A stretch of 64,000 nt of DNA, taken from positions 186,001 through 250,000 of the forward strand of contig NZ_PTJD01000004.1 in the NCBI RefSeq assembly GCF_002934625.1, in the 5' to 3' direction. Origin of the DNA: Kineococcus xinjiangensis (GTDB lineage: Bacteria > Actinomycetota > Actinomycetes > Actinomycetales > Kineococcaceae). Shown here piece by piece: positions 18,044 to 49,041 of the stretch (its first letter is position 1; each line of letters begins with the position of its first letter). The notes beneath the pieces are model-generated. The model worked only from the letters and a program-made list of their open reading frames with translations, did no database searches and was not told the DNA's origin. Made by a program: the position numbers and the translations under genes.

Positions 18044-20227
18044 CTACGGCTGCGCGCCGAACAGGTCCGCCGCCGCGACGGGGCGGCCGAAGAGCCAGCC
18101 CTGGGCCCGGTCGCAGCCCATCTGCAGCAGCCGCTGCGCCTGCAGCTCCGTCTCCACCCCCTCGGCGGTGACGAGCATGCCGTGGGCGTGGGCGAGGGCG
18201 ATGAGCGCCTCCACGACCGCGTCGGCGCGCCGGCTCGTGCCGAGCGGCGTGACGAACGAGCGGTCGATCTTCAGGAAGCTCAGCGGGAACCGCTGCAGGT
18301 AGGCCAGCGACGAGTAGCCGGTGCCGAAGTCGTCCAGGCCGACGCGGACGCCGGCGCTGCGCAGCTCGTGGAGGCTGGCCCGGGTGGGTGCGCTGAGGTC
18401 GATGAGGGTGCGCTCGGTGACCTCGGCGAGCAGGTGGCTGCCGGCTCCGCTGTTGCGCTGCACGCTGTGGGCGAGCCGGTGCGAGAACGCGGGGTGCTCG
18501 AGGGTGCGCCCGGAGACGTTGACCGAGACCTGCAGGTCGGTGCCGGCGCTGCGCCACTCCTGGAGCTGGTCCAGCGCGGCGTCGAGCACCCAGGAGTCCA
18601 CGTCCACGATCAGGCCGGTGTCCTCGGCCGTGTCGACGAAGGTGGCGGGGCCGAACAGCCCCTCGACGGGGTCCTGCAGCCGCACCAGGCACTCGGCGGC
18701 GACGAGGTGGCGGTCGCGCAGGTCGACGATGGGCTGCCACACCAGGCGCAGGCCGCCGTCGCGCAGCGCCCGGCGCAGGCGCCGCTCGGAGTCGTGGCGG
18801 GTCCGGGCGTCCTCGCGCATCGCCAGGTCGTAGAGGGCGCACCGGTCCCGGCCGGCGGCCTTGGCGCGGTAGAGGGCCATGTCGGCGGAGCGGAGCAGGT
18901 CCTCGGCGCTGCCGCCGGCGGCGACGGCCACCCCGGCGCTCGCGGTGCACACGAGGGGCTCGGGGAGACCCGGGAGCTGGTGGGGGGCGCGGAGGCGGCG
19001 GACGAGGTCGTGCGCGAGCACCTGGGCGAAGTCGGGCCGGTCCACTCCGGGGAGGCAGAGGACGAACTCGTCGCCGCCGAGGCGCGCCAGGGTGGAGCCG
19101 GCCGGCGCGGCCGCGCGCAGCCGCTCGGCGACCCGGCGCAGCAGGGCGTCCCCGGCCTGGTGGCCGAGGCTGTCGTTGACGAGCTTGAAGTTGTCGAGGT
19201 CCAGGAGGACGAGGACGACCGCGCGGGCGGGCCCGGCCTGCTGCAGCGCCTCGGCGAGCCGGGCGTCGAGCAGGGTGCGGTTGGGCAGGCCCGTGAGGCT
19301 GTCGCTGTGGGCGAGCCGGACGAGCTCGCGGGTGTGCGCGTCGTCGTCGGACAGGTCGAGGGCCATCCCCCGCATGGGACCGCGTGCGGGGTCGTGCGCG
19401 GGGTCGTGCGCGGGGTCGTGCCCCGCAGAGGCGTCGCTCCAGCCGAGGAGGGTCCGGACCTCGCCCCCGGCGGTGGTGACGCGGAAGGGGTAGGTGGCGG
19501 ATTCGCGGCCGGGGACGGTGAGGGGGCCGCGGTCGTCGGCGTGGATTGTTTCGGACCAGGTGTCGGCGTCGAGGGCCGCGGTACCGGCGGGCAGGCCGAG
19601 CATCTCCCGCATGGTCTCGTCGAGGCGCACGCGCCCGTCGGGCTGCAGCTCCCAGCTGCCCAGGCCGCCCAGGGAACGGGCGCCGCCGAGGAGCGCGCGG
19701 GTGGCGGTGAGGTCCTGCTCGACGCCGTGGCGGGCCCGGGCCTCGGCGACACGGGCGAGGGCCAGGGTGGCGGCACCGGCGAGCGCCCCGACGAGGGGGC
19801 GGGCGGCCTGGGCGGGCTCGGCCAGCAGCCGGGGGCCGTCCTCGGTGGCGGCGGGGTGGGTCAGGGGCACGACGGCGGTGGCTGCGGGCGCCTCCCGCAG
19901 GAGGGTGCCGGGGGCGGGGGCGCCGGGCCCGGTGGCGGCGAGGACGGCGCAGGTGCCGTCGCGGTCGGGTGCGGCGAGCACGAGCGCGGTCCCGGCGCCG
20001 GCTGCGGAGAGGGCGGCGGCGAGCTCGCGGGCGACGGCGCCCTCGTCGGTGCAGGCGGCGAGGTGGCGCTGCGTGCGCTGCAGGAGGGACCAGGGGTCCG
20101 CGGGCGGGGGCTCGTGCCGGGTGGCGCGCCCGGGCGCCGCGCCGGTGGGCGGGGCCGGCACCAGGGGCGTCCGCCAGTCGGCGCGGCTGTCGCCGCGTTC
20201 CGCCCCCGCTCGTGCTCCGTCGCTCAC
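18044..20227 (-). CDS. GGDEF-EAL cyclic-di-GMP enzyme with N-terminal sensor region
   Basis: A 727-residue soluble protein. A GAF-like region (about 40-200) and a PAS-like region (about 205-300) precede a GGDEF domain (GGDEF at 384-388) and an EAL domain. The EAL signature is ECLVRL rather than EALVR, but the other catalytic residues are present: VNVSGR, EVTERTL, GLDDFGTGYSSL, LKIDRSF and AEGVETE. Both synthesis and hydrolysis of cyclic-di-GMP are therefore possible, unlike the two membrane relatives at 44420 and 46759. A His-Asp-Pro-Ala repeat (HDPAHDPAHDPA) lies just before the GGDEF domain. The GTG start at 20227 follows GAGGGGG by four bases. Confidence 0.92.
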   Translation of the reverse strand: MSDGARAGAERGDSRADWRTPLVPAPPTGAAPGRATRHEPPPADPWSLLQRTQRHLAACTDEGAVARELAAALSAAGAGTALVLAAPDRDGTCAVLAATGPGAPAPGTLLREAPAATAVVPLTHPAATEDGPRLLAEPAQAARPLVGALAGAATLALARVAEARARHGVEQDLTATRALLGGARSLGGLGSWELQPDGRVRLDETMREMLGLPAGTAALDADTWSETIHADDRGPLTVPGRESATYPFRVTTAGGEVRTLLGWSDASAGHDPAHDPAHDPARGPMRGMALDLSDDDAHTRELVRLAHSDSLTGLPNRTLLDARLAEALQQAGPARAVVLVLLDLDNFKLVNDSLGHQAGDALLRRVAERLRAAAPAGSTLARLGGDEFVLCLPGVDRPDFAQVLAHDLVRRLRAPHQLPGLPEPLVCTASAGVAVAAGGSAEDLLRSADMALYRAKAAGRDRCALYDLAMREDARTRHDSERRLRRALRDGGLRLVWQPIVDLRDRHLVAAECLVRLQDPVEGLFGPATFVDTAEDTGLIVDVDSWVLDAALDQLQEWRSAGTDLQVSVNVSGRTLEHPAFSHRLAHSVQRNSGAGSHLLAEVTERTLIDLSAPTRASLHELRSAGVRVGLDDFGTGYSSLAYLQRFPLSFLKIDRSFVTPLGTSRRADAVVEALIALAHAHGMLVTAEGVETELQAQRLLQMGCDRAQGWLFGRPVAAADLFGAQP

Positions 20228-20459
20228 CGGACCCCCTCGTCTCTCACCGTACGTGAGGGACAGTAACCAGTCAGTGAGATGGGTCGATTCGAGCTCCCCG
20301 TTCGGCGCAGTCGACACCTCCGCGGCCTGCCCGGTGGGTGCCGCGCGCTCTGCAAGGATGCGGGCACGCGCAGGCGCGTTCCCGATCCGCCTGCGCCCCG
20401 GCGCGGCCGGGACCGGTGCGCACCCGCCGCCCCCTCCCCCCGTTCCTGGAGGTACCGCC

Positions 20460-21947
20460 GTGCCCGCGACGACCGACGCCGCGCAGCCCACAGCCAGCCG
20501 CTCCACCCTCGACCGCTTCTTCCGCATCTCCGAACGCGGCTCCACGCTGGGCCGGGAGGTCCGCGGCGGCGTCGTCACCTTCTTCGCGATGGCCTACATC
20601 GTGGTGCTCAACCCGCTGATCCTCGGCCTCAGCCCGGACAGCACCGGGGCCTTCCTCGCCGGGGGCAGCGCACCGGACCTGCCGGCGATCGCCGCCGCGA
20701 CGGCCCTGGTCGCCGGGGTGCTGACGATCCTGATGGGCGCCGTCGCCAACTACCCCCTCGCCCTGGCCACCGGCCTCGGCCTCAACGCCTTCGTCGCCTT
20801 CGGGATCGCCACGCTGCCCGGGATGACGTGGGCTGACGCGATGGGCCTGGTGGTGCTGGAGGGCCTCATCATCCTCGTGCTGGTGCTCACCGGCTTCCGC
20901 CGCGCGGTCTTCCACGCCATCCCCGCACAGCTCAAGATCGCCATCAGCGTCGGCATCGGCCTGTTCATCACGATCATCGGCCTCGTCGACGCCGGCATCG
21001 TCCGCACCCCGGAGGGGGCCGCGGTCCCGCTGGAGCTCGGCGTGGGCGGCTCCCTGGCCGGCTGGCCGGTCGTGGTGTTCGTCGCGGGCCTGGCGCTGAT
21101 GACGGCGCTGTTCGTGCGGAAGGTGCGCGGCGCGCTGCTCATCGGCATCGTCGCGGCGACCGCGTTCGCCGTCGTCCTCGAGGCCGTCGCGGACATCGGC
21201 CCGAAGATCGGCGCCGACGGGGCGAGGAACCCCGTCGGCTGGGGCCTCAACGTGCCGGCGCTGCCCGAGAGCATCGCCGCCGTCCCCGACCTGAGCCTGC
21301 TCGGCGAGTTCGACCTGCTGGGGTCCTTCTCCGCGATCGGCGTGACCAGCGTCGTGCTGCTCGTCTTCACGCTCCTGCTGGCGGACTTCTTCGACACGAT
21401 GGGCACGATGGTGGCGATCGGTGCGGAGGCGGAGCTGCTCGACGAGGAGGGCAACCCGCCCGGCTCGCAGCGGATCCTCGTGGTCGACTCCGTGGCGGCC
21501 ATCGCCGGTGGTGCGGCCGGGATCTCCAGCAACACCTCCTACATCGAGTCCGCGGCGGGCGTCGGCGAGGGCGCGCGCACGGGCCTGGCCTCGATCGTGA
21601 CGGGCGTGCTGTTCCTGGCCGCGATGTTCCTGGCGCCGCTGGTGGCGGTCGTCCCCTACGAGGCCGCGACGCCGGCGCTGGTGATCGTCGGGTTCCTGAT
21701 GATGCAGCAGGTCGGGGGCATCGACTGGAAGGACGTGGAGATCGCCCTGCCGGCGTTCCTGACGATCGTGATGATGCCGTTCTCGTACTCGATCAGCGCG
21801 GGCATCGGTGCGGGCTTCGTGTCCTTCGTGCTCATCAAGGTGGTGCGGGGCAGGGCCCGCCAGGTGCACCCGCTCCTGTGGGTGGTCGCGCTGCTCTTCG
21901 TCGCGTACTTCGCGGTCAACCCGATCCGCCAGCTCCTCGGCGGCTGA
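20460..21947 (+). CDS. NCS2 purine permease (AzgA type)
   Basis: A 495-residue membrane transporter of the AzgA-like NCS2 branch (hypoxanthine/guanine/adenine uptake). Typical segments are GVVTFFAMAYIVVLNPLIL near residue 40, TGLGLNAFVAFGI, a DFFDTMGTMVAIG motif near residue 310 and the STSYIES-like SSNTSYIESAAGVG. About 12-14 membrane segments are expected. The GTG start is preceded by GGAGG seven bases upstream. It is divergent from the GGDEF-EAL gene across 232 bases. It probably imports purine bases by proton symport; exact substrate is inference from the family. Confidence 0.92.
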   Translation: MPATTDAAQPTASRSTLDRFFRISERGSTLGREVRGGVVTFFAMAYIVVLNPLILGLSPDSTGAFLAGGSAPDLPAIAAATALVAGVLTILMGAVANYPLALATGLGLNAFVAFGIATLPGMTWADAMGLVVLEGLIILVLVLTGFRRAVFHAIPAQLKIAISVGIGLFITIIGLVDAGIVRTPEGAAVPLELGVGGSLAGWPVVVFVAGLALMTALFVRKVRGALLIGIVAATAFAVVLEAVADIGPKIGADGARNPVGWGLNVPALPESIAAVPDLSLLGEFDLLGSFSAIGVTSVVLLVFTLLLADFFDTMGTMVAIGAEAELLDEEGNPPGSQRILVVDSVAAIAGGAAGISSNTSYIESAAGVGEGARTGLASIVTGVLFLAAMFLAPLVAVVPYEAATPALVIVGFLMMQQVGGIDWKDVEIALPAFLTIVMMPFSYSISAGIGAGFVSFVLIKVVRGRARQVHPLLWVVALLFVAYFAVNPIRQLLGG

Positions 21948-44419: not shown

Positions 44420-46705
44420 ATGACGACCACCGATGCGGGCGAGGTCCCCGACACGGGCCTGCAGCGCATGCGGCGGTTCGTGCTCGGCGCCGGGCTGATG
44501 GGCTTCACCCTGCTCATCCCCGCCATCCTCGGCGCCCCCTACTCGGGGCAGCGCCGCCTCGTGGGCGTCGCCGCGCTGCTGAGCCTCATGGCGATCGCCG
44601 TCGTGACGTACCGGCGCTCGCGCCCGCTGCCGCTGGACGCGCTCCTCGTGCCGGTCCTGATGGTCGTCGCGGGCGTCAACCTCGTCGACGCCATGGCGAG
44701 CCTCGCCATCTGCATGAACGTGCTGTTCGTGATGTCCCTCTACGGCAGCCGGTTGCGCGCCGTGGTGCTCGCCACGCTCGCGGTGGGCGCCGTCATGGCC
44801 ACCCTGTGGCTCACGCCCTACCTCTCCGGTGACGTCATCCAGTGGCTGCAGCCGCACGCGCTGGCGAACCTGCCCCAGCTCGCGGTGATCGCCGTGCTGA
44901 CGCGCATCCTGCTCACGACCCTGCGGGCGCACTTCCGCGCCTCGCAGCGGGAGGCGCTGCTGGCCCGCACCGGCAGCCGGCTGCTGGCCGCCGCGTCCAT
45001 GCCGGAGCTGTGGCGCCTCAGCCGGGAAGCCGGCGAGGAGCTGTGCAGCCTGACCCGCGGAACCGCCGCCCTGGTGGTGGAGCTCGACGGCGACACCGTC
45101 CGCGTCCTCAGCTCCGCCGGCGACGTCGTCGCCCCCGACGAGCTCCACCTGCCCGCCTCGCTCCTCACGCGCGACGGCACGTGCGGTGAGGCCGCCTTCC
45201 TCCCGCTCGCCGAGCCGGTCGAGGCGCTGCGCACCGCCGCCCCGCACCTGCGGCACTGGTACGTGCTGCGCGTCGACGGCCCCGCCTCCCGCCGCTACGT
45301 CCTCATCGGCGGTCGACGCCCCGTGCACCTGGCCGTCCTCAACGCCCACCGCACCCTCGCCGACCAGTGCAGCCTCGCCCATGCCAGCCGCGCCGCCTAC
45401 GAGCGGCTGGACCACAAGGCCAGCCACGACGAGCTGACCGGCCTGCCCACCCGCGGGTTGTTCCTGGAGCAGGTCGGCGCGGCGATCGAGACCGCCCGCG
45501 AGGGCGTCACCCTGCTCAACATCGACCTCGACGACTTCAAGCAGGTCAACGACGTCCACGGCCACGCCGCCGGCGACGAACTGCTCGTCGAGGCCGCGCG
45601 CCGCATGCGTGAGGTGTGCGGCGCGGCCAGCGTCCCCGCCCGCTTCGGCGGCGACGAGTTCGCCGTCCTGCTGCCGACCTCCCTCGGCGGCGAGGACGCC
45701 GCGGAGCTCGCCCGCGCCCTGTGCCGGCGCCTGACCGACCCGATGGTCCTCTCCGCCGCCACCGTGACCGTCGGCGCCAGCATCGGCGTGGCGAGCTGGA
45801 GCGCACCGCTGACCGCCGGCGACGTGCTCCGCTGCGCCGACATCGCGATGTACTGGGCCAAGGCGATGGGCAAGAACCGCGTCGAGCACTTCGACCCGGC
45901 CCGCCACGGCGACATCGCCCGCCACCGCCTCCTGGAGGACCACCTCGCCTCCGCCGTCGAGCGCGGCGAGATCGTCGTCCGCTACGAGCCCAGCATCGAC
46001 GTCGTCACCGGCGAGTGCGTCGCGGTCGAGGCCGAGCCCCACTGGGAGCACCCCCTGCTCGGCCTGCTCGCACCGGCGGAGTTCCTCCCGCAGGCCCGCC
46101 GCTCCGGGCGGGTCAACGAGATCGGCGCGCACGTGCTCGCCACCGCCTGCGCCGAACTGGCCGCGTGGTCGGGCGTCCCCGCCCTGGAGCGGACCCGGCT
46201 CTGCGTCGACGTCACCGCCCGCCAGCTCACCGACCCCGCCTTCTCCGGCCGGGTCCTCGGCGCGCTCGCCGACGCGGGCCTGCCCCCGCAGCGGCTCACC
46301 CTGGAACTCACCGACGCCGACGACACCGACGAGCGCAGCGCCCACCCGCAACTGGCCGCCCTCGCCGAACTGGGCGTGCGGATCTGCGTCGACGGCTTCG
46401 CCACCGGGCGCGACACGCTCACGGTGCGCAACGCGTTCCCCGTCCACGAGCTCAAGATCGACGGGGCCGCGACGCTGGCGTCGCCCACCGACGCGGTGCG
46501 CAGCCTGCAGGTGGTGCGCGCCATCGGCGACGTCCTCGGCCTCCAGCTGACCGCGCACGGCGTCGGCGACGGGGAGCAGGTCGCGCACCTGCGCGAGAAC
46601 GGGGTCACCGCGGTCCAGGGTCCCGCCGTCGCGGGCGCCCTGTCCGCGCCGCAGCTCGCCTCCTGGGTGGCCGAGCACGGGCGGGCCGGGGCTTCCAGCC
46701 GCTGA
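44420..46705 (+). CDS. Membrane GGDEF protein with degenerate EAL domain (paralogue 1)
   Basis: A 761-residue protein. About six membrane segments occupy residues 20-165, followed by a cytoplasmic linker. The GGDEF domain is intact (RFGGDEF, GGDEF at 410-414; NIDLDDFKQVND) and should make cyclic-di-GMP. The EAL domain has lost its catalytic residues: VEAEPHW instead of EALVRW, DVTARQL instead of a VNxS motif, LTDADDTDE instead of a TE motif, and VDGFATG instead of DDFGTG. It is therefore probably a binding or structural module. It has a tandem paralogue directly downstream, with a terminator hairpin between. Confidence 0.9.
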   Translation: MTTTDAGEVPDTGLQRMRRFVLGAGLMGFTLLIPAILGAPYSGQRRLVGVAALLSLMAIAVVTYRRSRPLPLDALLVPVLMVVAGVNLVDAMASLAICMNVLFVMSLYGSRLRAVVLATLAVGAVMATLWLTPYLSGDVIQWLQPHALANLPQLAVIAVLTRILLTTLRAHFRASQREALLARTGSRLLAAASMPELWRLSREAGEELCSLTRGTAALVVELDGDTVRVLSSAGDVVAPDELHLPASLLTRDGTCGEAAFLPLAEPVEALRTAAPHLRHWYVLRVDGPASRRYVLIGGRRPVHLAVLNAHRTLADQCSLAHASRAAYERLDHKASHDELTGLPTRGLFLEQVGAAIETAREGVTLLNIDLDDFKQVNDVHGHAAGDELLVEAARRMREVCGAASVPARFGGDEFAVLLPTSLGGEDAAELARALCRRLTDPMVLSAATVTVGASIGVASWSAPLTAGDVLRCADIAMYWAKAMGKNRVEHFDPARHGDIARHRLLEDHLASAVERGEIVVRYEPSIDVVTGECVAVEAEPHWEHPLLGLLAPAEFLPQARRSGRVNEIGAHVLATACAELAAWSGVPALERTRLCVDVTARQLTDPAFSGRVLGALADAGLPPQRLTLELTDADDTDERSAHPQLAALAELGVRICVDGFATGRDTLTVRNAFPVHELKIDGAATLASPTDAVRSLQVVRAIGDVLGLQLTAHGVGDGEQVAHLRENGVTAVQGPAVAGALSAPQLASWVAEHGRAGASSR
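45512..45853 (+). repeat. Gene-conversion-like tract, copy 1
   Basis: 342 bases match 47845-48186 with five differences by my count, covering the GGDEF core. Flanking parts of the two genes are far more divergent. Confidence 0.85.
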
Positions 46706-46711
46706 GCACCA

Positions 46712-46740
46712 CCCGTCCAGGGGATGAAGCCCTGGACGGG
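46712..46740 (+). terminator. Hairpin between the two GGDEF paralogues
   Basis: Perfect 11-bp stem (CCCGTCCAGGG / CCCTGGACGGG) with a 7-base loop, 7 bases after the first stop. The second paralogue starts 18 bases later. Confidence 0.75.
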
Positions 46741-46758
46741 ACGGGTCGATGACCGGGC

Positions 46759-49041
46759 ATGCGCATCTCGAGGTGGGGCCGCCGGAGCACCCTCGACCGG
46801 GTCCGCCTCGTCGCCTGCGCGGCGGGCGCCACCGGGTTCCTCGGGATGGCACCGCCCGTCCTCGCCTCCCCCCACCCCCTGCCGTGGCGGCTGGCGGGGG
46901 TGGCGGCCCTGGTGGCGCTCGCCGTCCTGGCGGTCGTGACCTACCGCCGCCGGCGGCCGGTGCCGGGCGACGTGCTGCTGATCCCGGGGCTCATGGTCCT
47001 CGGGGGGATCAGCCACCAGGACCCCCTGTCCACCATCGGGGTCTGCTCCAACGCGATCTTCGCCTTCAGCCTCTACGGCTCCCACCGGCGCGGCGCGGTC
47101 CTCGCCGTCGCGGCGGGCCTGGCGATCCCCGTGGTGGTCTCCATCTCCCCCTACTCGCTGGGGCGGCTCATCCCCTGGCACCACCCCGCGGTCCTGGGCA
47201 ACCTGCCGCAGATGGCGCTCATGGCCCTGCTGATGCGCATCCTCCACTCCTGCCTGCGGGCCCAGGAGCTCTCCGCCCGCCGCGAGGGCCTGCTCGCCCG
47301 CACCGGGAGCCAGTTCCTGAGGCTGCGGGACCTCCAGGCGCTGCGGGAGGCCGTCACCGCCGCCGGGGAGGACCTGGCGGAGCTGGCGCCCGGCACCGCC
47401 GTGCTCGTCGTCGAGCGCCGGGCGGGATCGGCGATCGTCGTCGCCTCCTGCGGCGCCCTGCAGGGGCTCGCGGGAGCGGCGGTCCCCGACGACCTCTCCG
47501 CCGTGCTCGACGCCCTCCCGCCGGACGTCCTGACCCCGCTGCCGCAGGGCCCCGGTGCCCTCGGCGCAGCCGCCCCGCAGGTCGGGCACTGGCAGGGCGT
47601 GGCCCTCGCCACCGCGGAGGTCGAGCGGTTCCTCCTCCTCGGCGGCACCCGCCGCGTGGACGAGTCGGTGCTCGACGGCTACCGCACCCTCGCCGACCAG
47701 TTCAGCCTCGCCGAGGCGAGCTGCGCCTCCTACGAGCGGCTGAGCCACCGGGCCAGCCACGACGAGCTGACGGGACTGCCCACGCGTGCGCTGTTCCTGG
47801 AGCAGGTCGGTGACGCGATCGACATCCGGTGCGGCGCGGTGACGCTGCTCAACATCGACCTCGACGACTTCAAGCAGGTCAACGACGTCCACGGCCACGC
47901 CGCCGGCGACGAACTGCTCGTCGAGGCCGCGCGCCGCATGCGTGAGGTGTGCGGCGGGGCCAGCGTCCCCGCCCGCTTCGGCGGCGACGAGTTCGCCGTC
48001 CTCCTCCCGACCTCCCTCGGCGGCGAGGACGCCGCGGAGCTCGCCCGGGCCCTGTGCCGGCGCCTGACCGACCCGATGGTCCTCTCCGCCGCCACCGTGA
48101 CCGTCGGCGCCAGCATCGGCGTGGCGAGCTGGAGCGCACCGCTGACCGCCGGCGACGTGCTGCGCTGCGCCGACATCGCGATGTACACCGCCAAGGCGAT
48201 GGGCAAGAACCGCGTGGAGGTGTTCGACCCCACCCGCCACGGCGACGTCGCCCGCCACCGCCTCCTGGAGGACCACCTGATCTCCGCCGTCGAGCGCGGG
48301 GAGGTGTTCCTGCACTACGAGCCGGCCGTCGACCCGGCCACGGGCGCCTGCGTCGCGGTGGAGGCACGCCCGCACTGGATGCACCCGCTGCTGGGGCTGC
48401 TGCGCCCGGAGGACTTCCTCCCGCAGGCGCTGCGCTCGGGCCGCATCTGCGACATCGGCGCGCACACCCTGCGCACCGCCTGCACGGAGGTCGCCGCGTG
48501 GTCCGACGCGGACGGCATGGGGGAGGTGGAGGTCCGCGTCGACGTCGCCGCCCGCCAGCTCGCCGACCCGACCTTCGCCGACGTGGTGCTGGACGCCCTC
48601 GCCGCCTCGGGCCTGCCGGCGCGGCGCCTCCTCCTGGAGCTCGTCGACGCCGACGACACCGACGAGCGGACCGCACACCCGCAGCTGCGACGGCTGGCCG
48701 GGCACGGCGTGCGCCTGGTGGTCGACGGCTTCGCGGGTGGCCGGGACTGCCTGACGATGCACGAGGGCTTCCCGGTCTCCGAGCTCAAGCTCGACGCGGA
48801 GGCGGTCGAGCCGGGCGCCGACGCCCACCGCGTCCTCGGTCTGGCGCAGGCCATCGGCGGGTTCCTCGGGCTGCGGCTGACGGCGTGCGCGGTCGCCACC
48901 GCGGAGCATGCCGAGGAGCTGCGCGCCCTGGGCGTCGCCGCCGTGCAGGGGCCGGTGGTGGCGCCTGCGATGCCCGCGACCCACCTGGCCTCCTGGGTGG
49001 CCCGGCGGGCGAGGGTGAGCGCGGCGTCCGCCGCGGACTGA
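46759..49041 (+). CDS. Membrane GGDEF protein with degenerate EAL domain (paralogue 2)
   Basis: A 760-residue relative of the preceding protein with the same order: about six membrane segments (15-165), linker, GGDEF (408-412), degenerate EAL. The EAL part reads VEARPHW, DVAARQL, LVDADDTDE, VDGFAGG and ACAVATAEH in place of the catalytic motifs. The DADDTDER signature and the substituted motifs are shared with paralogue 1, so the degeneration preceded the duplication. The membrane parts have diverged strongly, suggesting different input signals for one conserved output domain. ATG 46759 lacks a strong Shine-Dalgarno sequence. Confidence 0.9.
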   Translation: MRISRWGRRSTLDRVRLVACAAGATGFLGMAPPVLASPHPLPWRLAGVAALVALAVLAVVTYRRRRPVPGDVLLIPGLMVLGGISHQDPLSTIGVCSNAIFAFSLYGSHRRGAVLAVAAGLAIPVVVSISPYSLGRLIPWHHPAVLGNLPQMALMALLMRILHSCLRAQELSARREGLLARTGSQFLRLRDLQALREAVTAAGEDLAELAPGTAVLVVERRAGSAIVVASCGALQGLAGAAVPDDLSAVLDALPPDVLTPLPQGPGALGAAAPQVGHWQGVALATAEVERFLLLGGTRRVDESVLDGYRTLADQFSLAEASCASYERLSHRASHDELTGLPTRALFLEQVGDAIDIRCGAVTLLNIDLDDFKQVNDVHGHAAGDELLVEAARRMREVCGGASVPARFGGDEFAVLLPTSLGGEDAAELARALCRRLTDPMVLSAATVTVGASIGVASWSAPLTAGDVLRCADIAMYTAKAMGKNRVEVFDPTRHGDVARHRLLEDHLISAVERGEVFLHYEPAVDPATGACVAVEARPHWMHPLLGLLRPEDFLPQALRSGRICDIGAHTLRTACTEVAAWSDADGMGEVEVRVDVAARQLADPTFADVVLDALAASGLPARRLLLELVDADDTDERTAHPQLRRLAGHGVRLVVDGFAGGRDCLTMHEGFPVSELKLDAEAVEPGADAHRVLGLAQAIGGFLGLRLTACAVATAEHAEELRALGVAAVQGPVVAPAMPATHLASWVARRARVSAASAAD
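47845..48186 (+). repeat. Gene-conversion-like tract, copy 2
   Basis: Partner of 45512-45853; the tracts are offset by exactly 2333 bases. Confidence 0.85.

Follow-up and report, generated by a model that had tools for sequence, protein, structure and literature searches.

Why should two tandem genes that are clearly diverged along most of their length share 342 bp that are almost the same in both? This question is raised by two neighbouring GGDEF genes, A and B, of Kineococcus xinjiangensis. They lie in a stretch of 64,000 nucleotides (the window; contig NZ_PTJD01000004.1, positions 186,001 to 250,000), for which the original prediction, made from the letters alone, proposed a recent gene conversion over the GGDEF core. 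Our analysis supports a conversion at this place. We conclude, with a probability of about 0.9, that one copy overwrote the other by homologous recombination along some 342 bp, that is, by ectopic and most likely non-reciprocal gene conversion. The features discussed are, in window positions:

44420-46705, + strand: gene A, an ORF of 761 aa whose product begins with a hydrophobic, apparently multi-TM region, followed by a linker, GGDEF and a degenerate EAL domain
46759-49041, + strand: gene B, an ORF of 760 aa, tandem paralogue with the architecture of gene A
45419-45880, + strand: GGDEF domain of A (Pfam PF00990)
47752-48213, + strand: GGDEF domain of B (Pfam PF00990)
45512-45853, + strand: copy in A of the tract read as converted, 342 bp that span LLNIDLDDFKQVND to DIAMY and take in the GGDEF signature; 5 differences from B
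47845-48186, + strand: copy in B of the same tract, at a register offset of 2333, placed by codon alignment and maximum-likelihood (ML) breakpoints
45854-45882, + strand: candidate extension in A beyond the 3' edge of the tract, a TGG/ACC codon difference followed by 26 identical bases; its counterpart in B is 48187-48215
46712-46740, + strand: hairpin with an 11-bp stem in the gap between A and B, found by folding; the stem is perfect and terminator-like, with no T run

Both genes run head to tail on the + strand with an intergenic gap of 53 bp. The hairpin in this gap was considered as a dispersed repeat and rejected, as the whole genome holds one exact copy. Pfam placed GGDEF at aa 334-487 (E 3.9e-36) and EAL at aa 508-738 (E 2.2e-40) in A, and at aa 332-485 (E 1.5e-35) and aa 509-736 (E 3.6e-34) in B; the hydrophobic N-terminal region apparently reads as several transmembrane helices in both. 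A and B resemble the GGDEF-EAL proteins of c-di-GMP metabolism in carrying both Pfam domains and an intact GGDEF signature (ARFGGDEFAVLL in each). However, they differ from them in the altered EAL motif and DDF and in the RxxD I-site, which we did not find at its usual place when reading the sequences. The EAL motif has become EAE/EAR and DDF has become VDGF in A and B, so that the EAL/DDFGTG signature of a phosphodiesterase is absent, whereas two homologues from the Actinoplanes group keep both EAL and DDF intact. Since the GGDEF signature is intact and the EAL motif and the second Asp of DDF are replaced, A and B probably act as cyclases, their EAL domain being non-catalytic.

In the codon alignment, the two tract copies differ at five positions: 45624 (C/G, Ala/Gly) and four silent ones, 45670, 45673, 45715, and 45829. 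The description at the outset, 342 bases with about five differences, was exact. The only amino-acid change (Ala/Gly) sits where the inhibitory RxxD I-site would be. The longest exact runs common to both copies are 113 and 112 bp, and dense differences start again at 45511 and 45854. Nucleotide identity per window of 20 codons is 92-100% in the tract and roughly 43-88% in the flanks, with flank means of about 60% (5') and 72% (3'). The flanks are thus diverged as first described, and the uniform identity across the whole genes that would have spoken against a conversion is absent. An ML fit with two change-points, run on the gap-free 45227-46426 stretch of the A/B alignment, placed the ends exactly at 45512-45853, with flank rates of 0.27 and 0.25 and a 2lnLR of 129 that none of 2000 permutations matched. 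The 5' edge is sharp, confined within 2 lnL to 45512-45518. The 3' edge is soft and at the same margin spans 45846-45966, because of the 26 further identical bases beyond the TGG/ACC codon difference. A bounded tract of high identity that extends to silent sites, between diverged flanks, is what ectopic gene conversion leaves.

Silent positions give the same picture. At amino acids with four- and six-fold codons, silent identity between A and B is 73/77 in the tract vs. 143/246 outside. As a genome-wide control, we scanned GGDEF pairs with per-amino-acid codon expectations, using 92 genes of the K. xinjiangensis genome and 55 from three relatives; 4,721 within-genome pairs from the four genomes were long enough to test. 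A/B gave the strongest silent-site tract of them all, with 77 of 81 informative codons identical and a score of 21.0, about twice the next best (10.8). For this score, n*exp(-S) sets a bound of 2.4e-7, which correction for the 4,721 pairs raises to about 1e-3. Synonymous divergence (dS) in the tract is about 0.046 between A and B, and 0.48-0.63 in their flanks, where identity at informative codons (57-58%) approaches that of unrelated pairs (about 50%). These flanks are near silent saturation, thus the duplication is old.

In place of an orthologous A/B pair, the family, order, and class searches returned only a single-copy homologue, in Kineococcus radiotolerans (genome G005). Outside the tract the three genes are about equidistant, with nucleotide identities of 0.655 (A/B), 0.642 (A/homologue) and 0.644 (B/homologue). 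Inside it, A/B rises to 0.985 vs. 0.757 and 0.754 to the homologue; amino-acid identity is 0.991 for A/B and 0.711 for A/homologue, and dS between A and the homologue is 0.40. Inside the tract, then, A and B resemble each other more than either resembles the homologue; outside they do not, and a conversion would leave them so. Judged against this outgroup, about three of the five differences look like changes in B and the other two like changes in A. No orthologous A/B pair was found at E 1e-100 in the family (12 genomes) or in 297 genomes of the order and 395 of the class, where few candidates were scored per genome. Hence, the comparison with relatives that had been suggested delivered the excess of A/B identity in the tract through a single-copy gene and not through a second pair. 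In K. radiotolerans (C2, near 1240343-1242196), the homologue adjoins a different GGDEF gene; in the window, this neighbour is matched best by the GGDEF gene at about 18047-20593.

Among trees built by region, those of the N-terminal half were not resolved and gave the A,B grouping the least support (p-AU 0.067); they do not order the A/B duplication against the split from Kineococcus. The EAL half favours A,B, and in the tract both are nearly identical. The affinity of A and B shifts between the N-terminal and EAL halves (Fisher p 0.009), and that of the EAL half could be an older, eroded exchange. No third donor for the tract appeared in the genome, where the best other match has 77% identity over about half the tract length; the only close copies are A and B themselves, which places the donor in the same genome.

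It is extremely unlikely that purifying selection on the protein or the nucleotides (RNA structure, antisense ORF or codon bias) produced the tract without recombination. Conservation in these proteins does indeed peak in the GGDEF core, and two-fold amino acids give a high chance of codon identity in this GC-rich genome. However, the K. radiotolerans homologue reaches only 71% amino-acid identity to A and to B in the tract, with a silent identity of 35/51 and 33/51 vs. 73/77 between A and B. Moreover, the dispersed GGDEF pairs of the genome fall short of the A/B level, and an RNA family is opposed by the absence of any Rfam match. Since A and B are 98.5% identical in the tract, each is 75-76% identical to the homologue there, and all are about equidistant outside, neither protein nor nucleotide constraint explains the identity. 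The argument that selection on protein alone would not preserve silent sites was thus borne out by the outgroup contrast and by the silent sites inside and outside the tract.

A short-read artefact, with one copy filled with reads from the other, had been named as a possible refutation. The assembly is a draft (4.62 Mb, 42 contigs), and at another near-identical pair of GGDEF genes the assembler did stop: the starts of contigs C11 and C29 lie in GGDEF gene ends with 96% identity over 247 bp. There it seems to have broken rather than blended, and a collapse of A and B would be expected to yield identity or a contig break of this kind. Instead, five diagnostic differences are spread along the tract, where no identical run exceeds 113 bases, and both copies have unique flanks well inside a 340-kb contig, which makes an artefact very unlikely. 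Direct tandem repeats also permit unequal crossing-over, by expansion to a chimeric third copy followed by contraction, and a chimeric tandem gene does exist in the C10 cluster described below. We give this route a small chance: it needs two crossovers with ends within 342 bp, and conversion needs one event. Counted against gene conversion are the single strain behind the assembly, the lack of an orthologous pair in the relatives searched, the five differences, and the similar tract that expansion and loss via two unequal crossovers would leave. In its favour stand the tract and its edges, the silent-site identity, the diverged flanks, the outgroup contrast, the lack of another donor in the assembly, and comparable mosaics in further tandem GGDEF clusters of this genome. 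The ML tract, the K. radiotolerans contrast and the top rank among 4,721 pairs agree with the conversion over the GGDEF core that was first proposed.

For gene conversion, we envisage the following course. A and B would go back to an old tandem duplication and have drifted about as far from one another as either has from the K. radiotolerans homologue. The two direct repeats lie 2.3 kb apart, and homologous recombination between them would have copied about 342 bp (possibly about 370) of the GGDEF core from one gene to the other. RecA-type recombination may have started where this core still had enough identity, with the exchange probably between sister chromosomes, and the five tract differences would have arisen after copying. 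The likely effect, as far as the proteins can be read, is that the sensory halves stay different and the diguanylate cyclase core becomes almost common to both. The conversion is young relative to the duplication; yet with five differences and a tract dS of about 0.046 it is not extremely recent, and the word "recent" holds in the first sense only.

The c-di-GMP repertoire of this genome is very large, with some 100 GGDEF matches along its 4.6 Mb; four Kineococcus relatives that were checked have 67-92. We ranked by nucleotide identity the 2,211 pairs among the 67 GGDEF domains fetched first. The three highest each consist of tandem neighbours, namely A/B, one pair from the cluster at C10:36.5-45.5 kb and one from that at C1:84.8-91 kb. 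C10:36500-45500 holds four tandem GGDEF genes, of which gene 2 is chimeric. Its N-terminal part is 0.88 identical to gene 4 vs. 0.68 to gene 1, and its GGDEF domain 0.90 to gene 1 vs. 0.74 to gene 4 (triplet test for a mosaic, Fisher p 8.6e-25). C1:84800-91000 holds three, two of which have patches of 0.95-1.00 around a patch of 0.73. On the single-tract test, both clusters were nominally significant only (p about 0.01-0.02). Besides, a dispersed GGDEF-EAL pair (C5:205942 / C12:52405), 76% identical overall, carries behind the GGDEF domain a stretch rich in silent-site identity (53/56 informative codons).

A general effect of tandem arrangement was discarded as not universal, since no tract showed in most of the other tandem pairs, nor in most of the 63 close GGDEF pairs from four genomes, and the match G010 369654/369954 was one gene counted twice. 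Tentatively, and at somewhat less than even odds, patchy recombination may recur in the tandem GGDEF clusters of this genome, holding the catalytic cores alike and leaving the sensory halves free to diversify, which would be a modular concerted evolution of c-di-GMP enzymes. Conversion would probably take hold where the conserved core still gives a long enough identity. If recurrent, the process would misplace tandem paralogues in GGDEF-domain trees and would offer a route for sensor diversification with outputs staying interchangeable.

Among the papers searched, we found no relevant report on gene conversion of GGDEF genes. The A/B case documents conversion between paralogous signalling genes of a bacterium cleanly and against a genome-wide control. 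Gene conversion between rRNA operons in E. coli (PMC8022953) is similar in being intragenomic copying between bacterial repeats; however, those repeats are near-identical over kilobases and kept so, and A/B has one patch in diverged genes. In methanogens, mtrA-1 and mtrA-2 of one operon have undergone long-lasting conversion (PMC4632066). They too are same-operon paralogues with a homogenised catalytic (non-TM) domain and differing membrane parts, but they encode an archaeal methyltransferase and span many lineages and a long time, whereas A/B concerns a c-di-GMP enzyme in one genome. The release-factor genes RF1 and RF2, with conversion over domain 3, also confine it to a functional domain common to diverged bacterial paralogues (PMC4530459). 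Unlike A/B, those are ancient events found by phylogeny with their direction resolved. A/B is a new, well-supported instance of this established process, the domain-limited conversion of paralogues.
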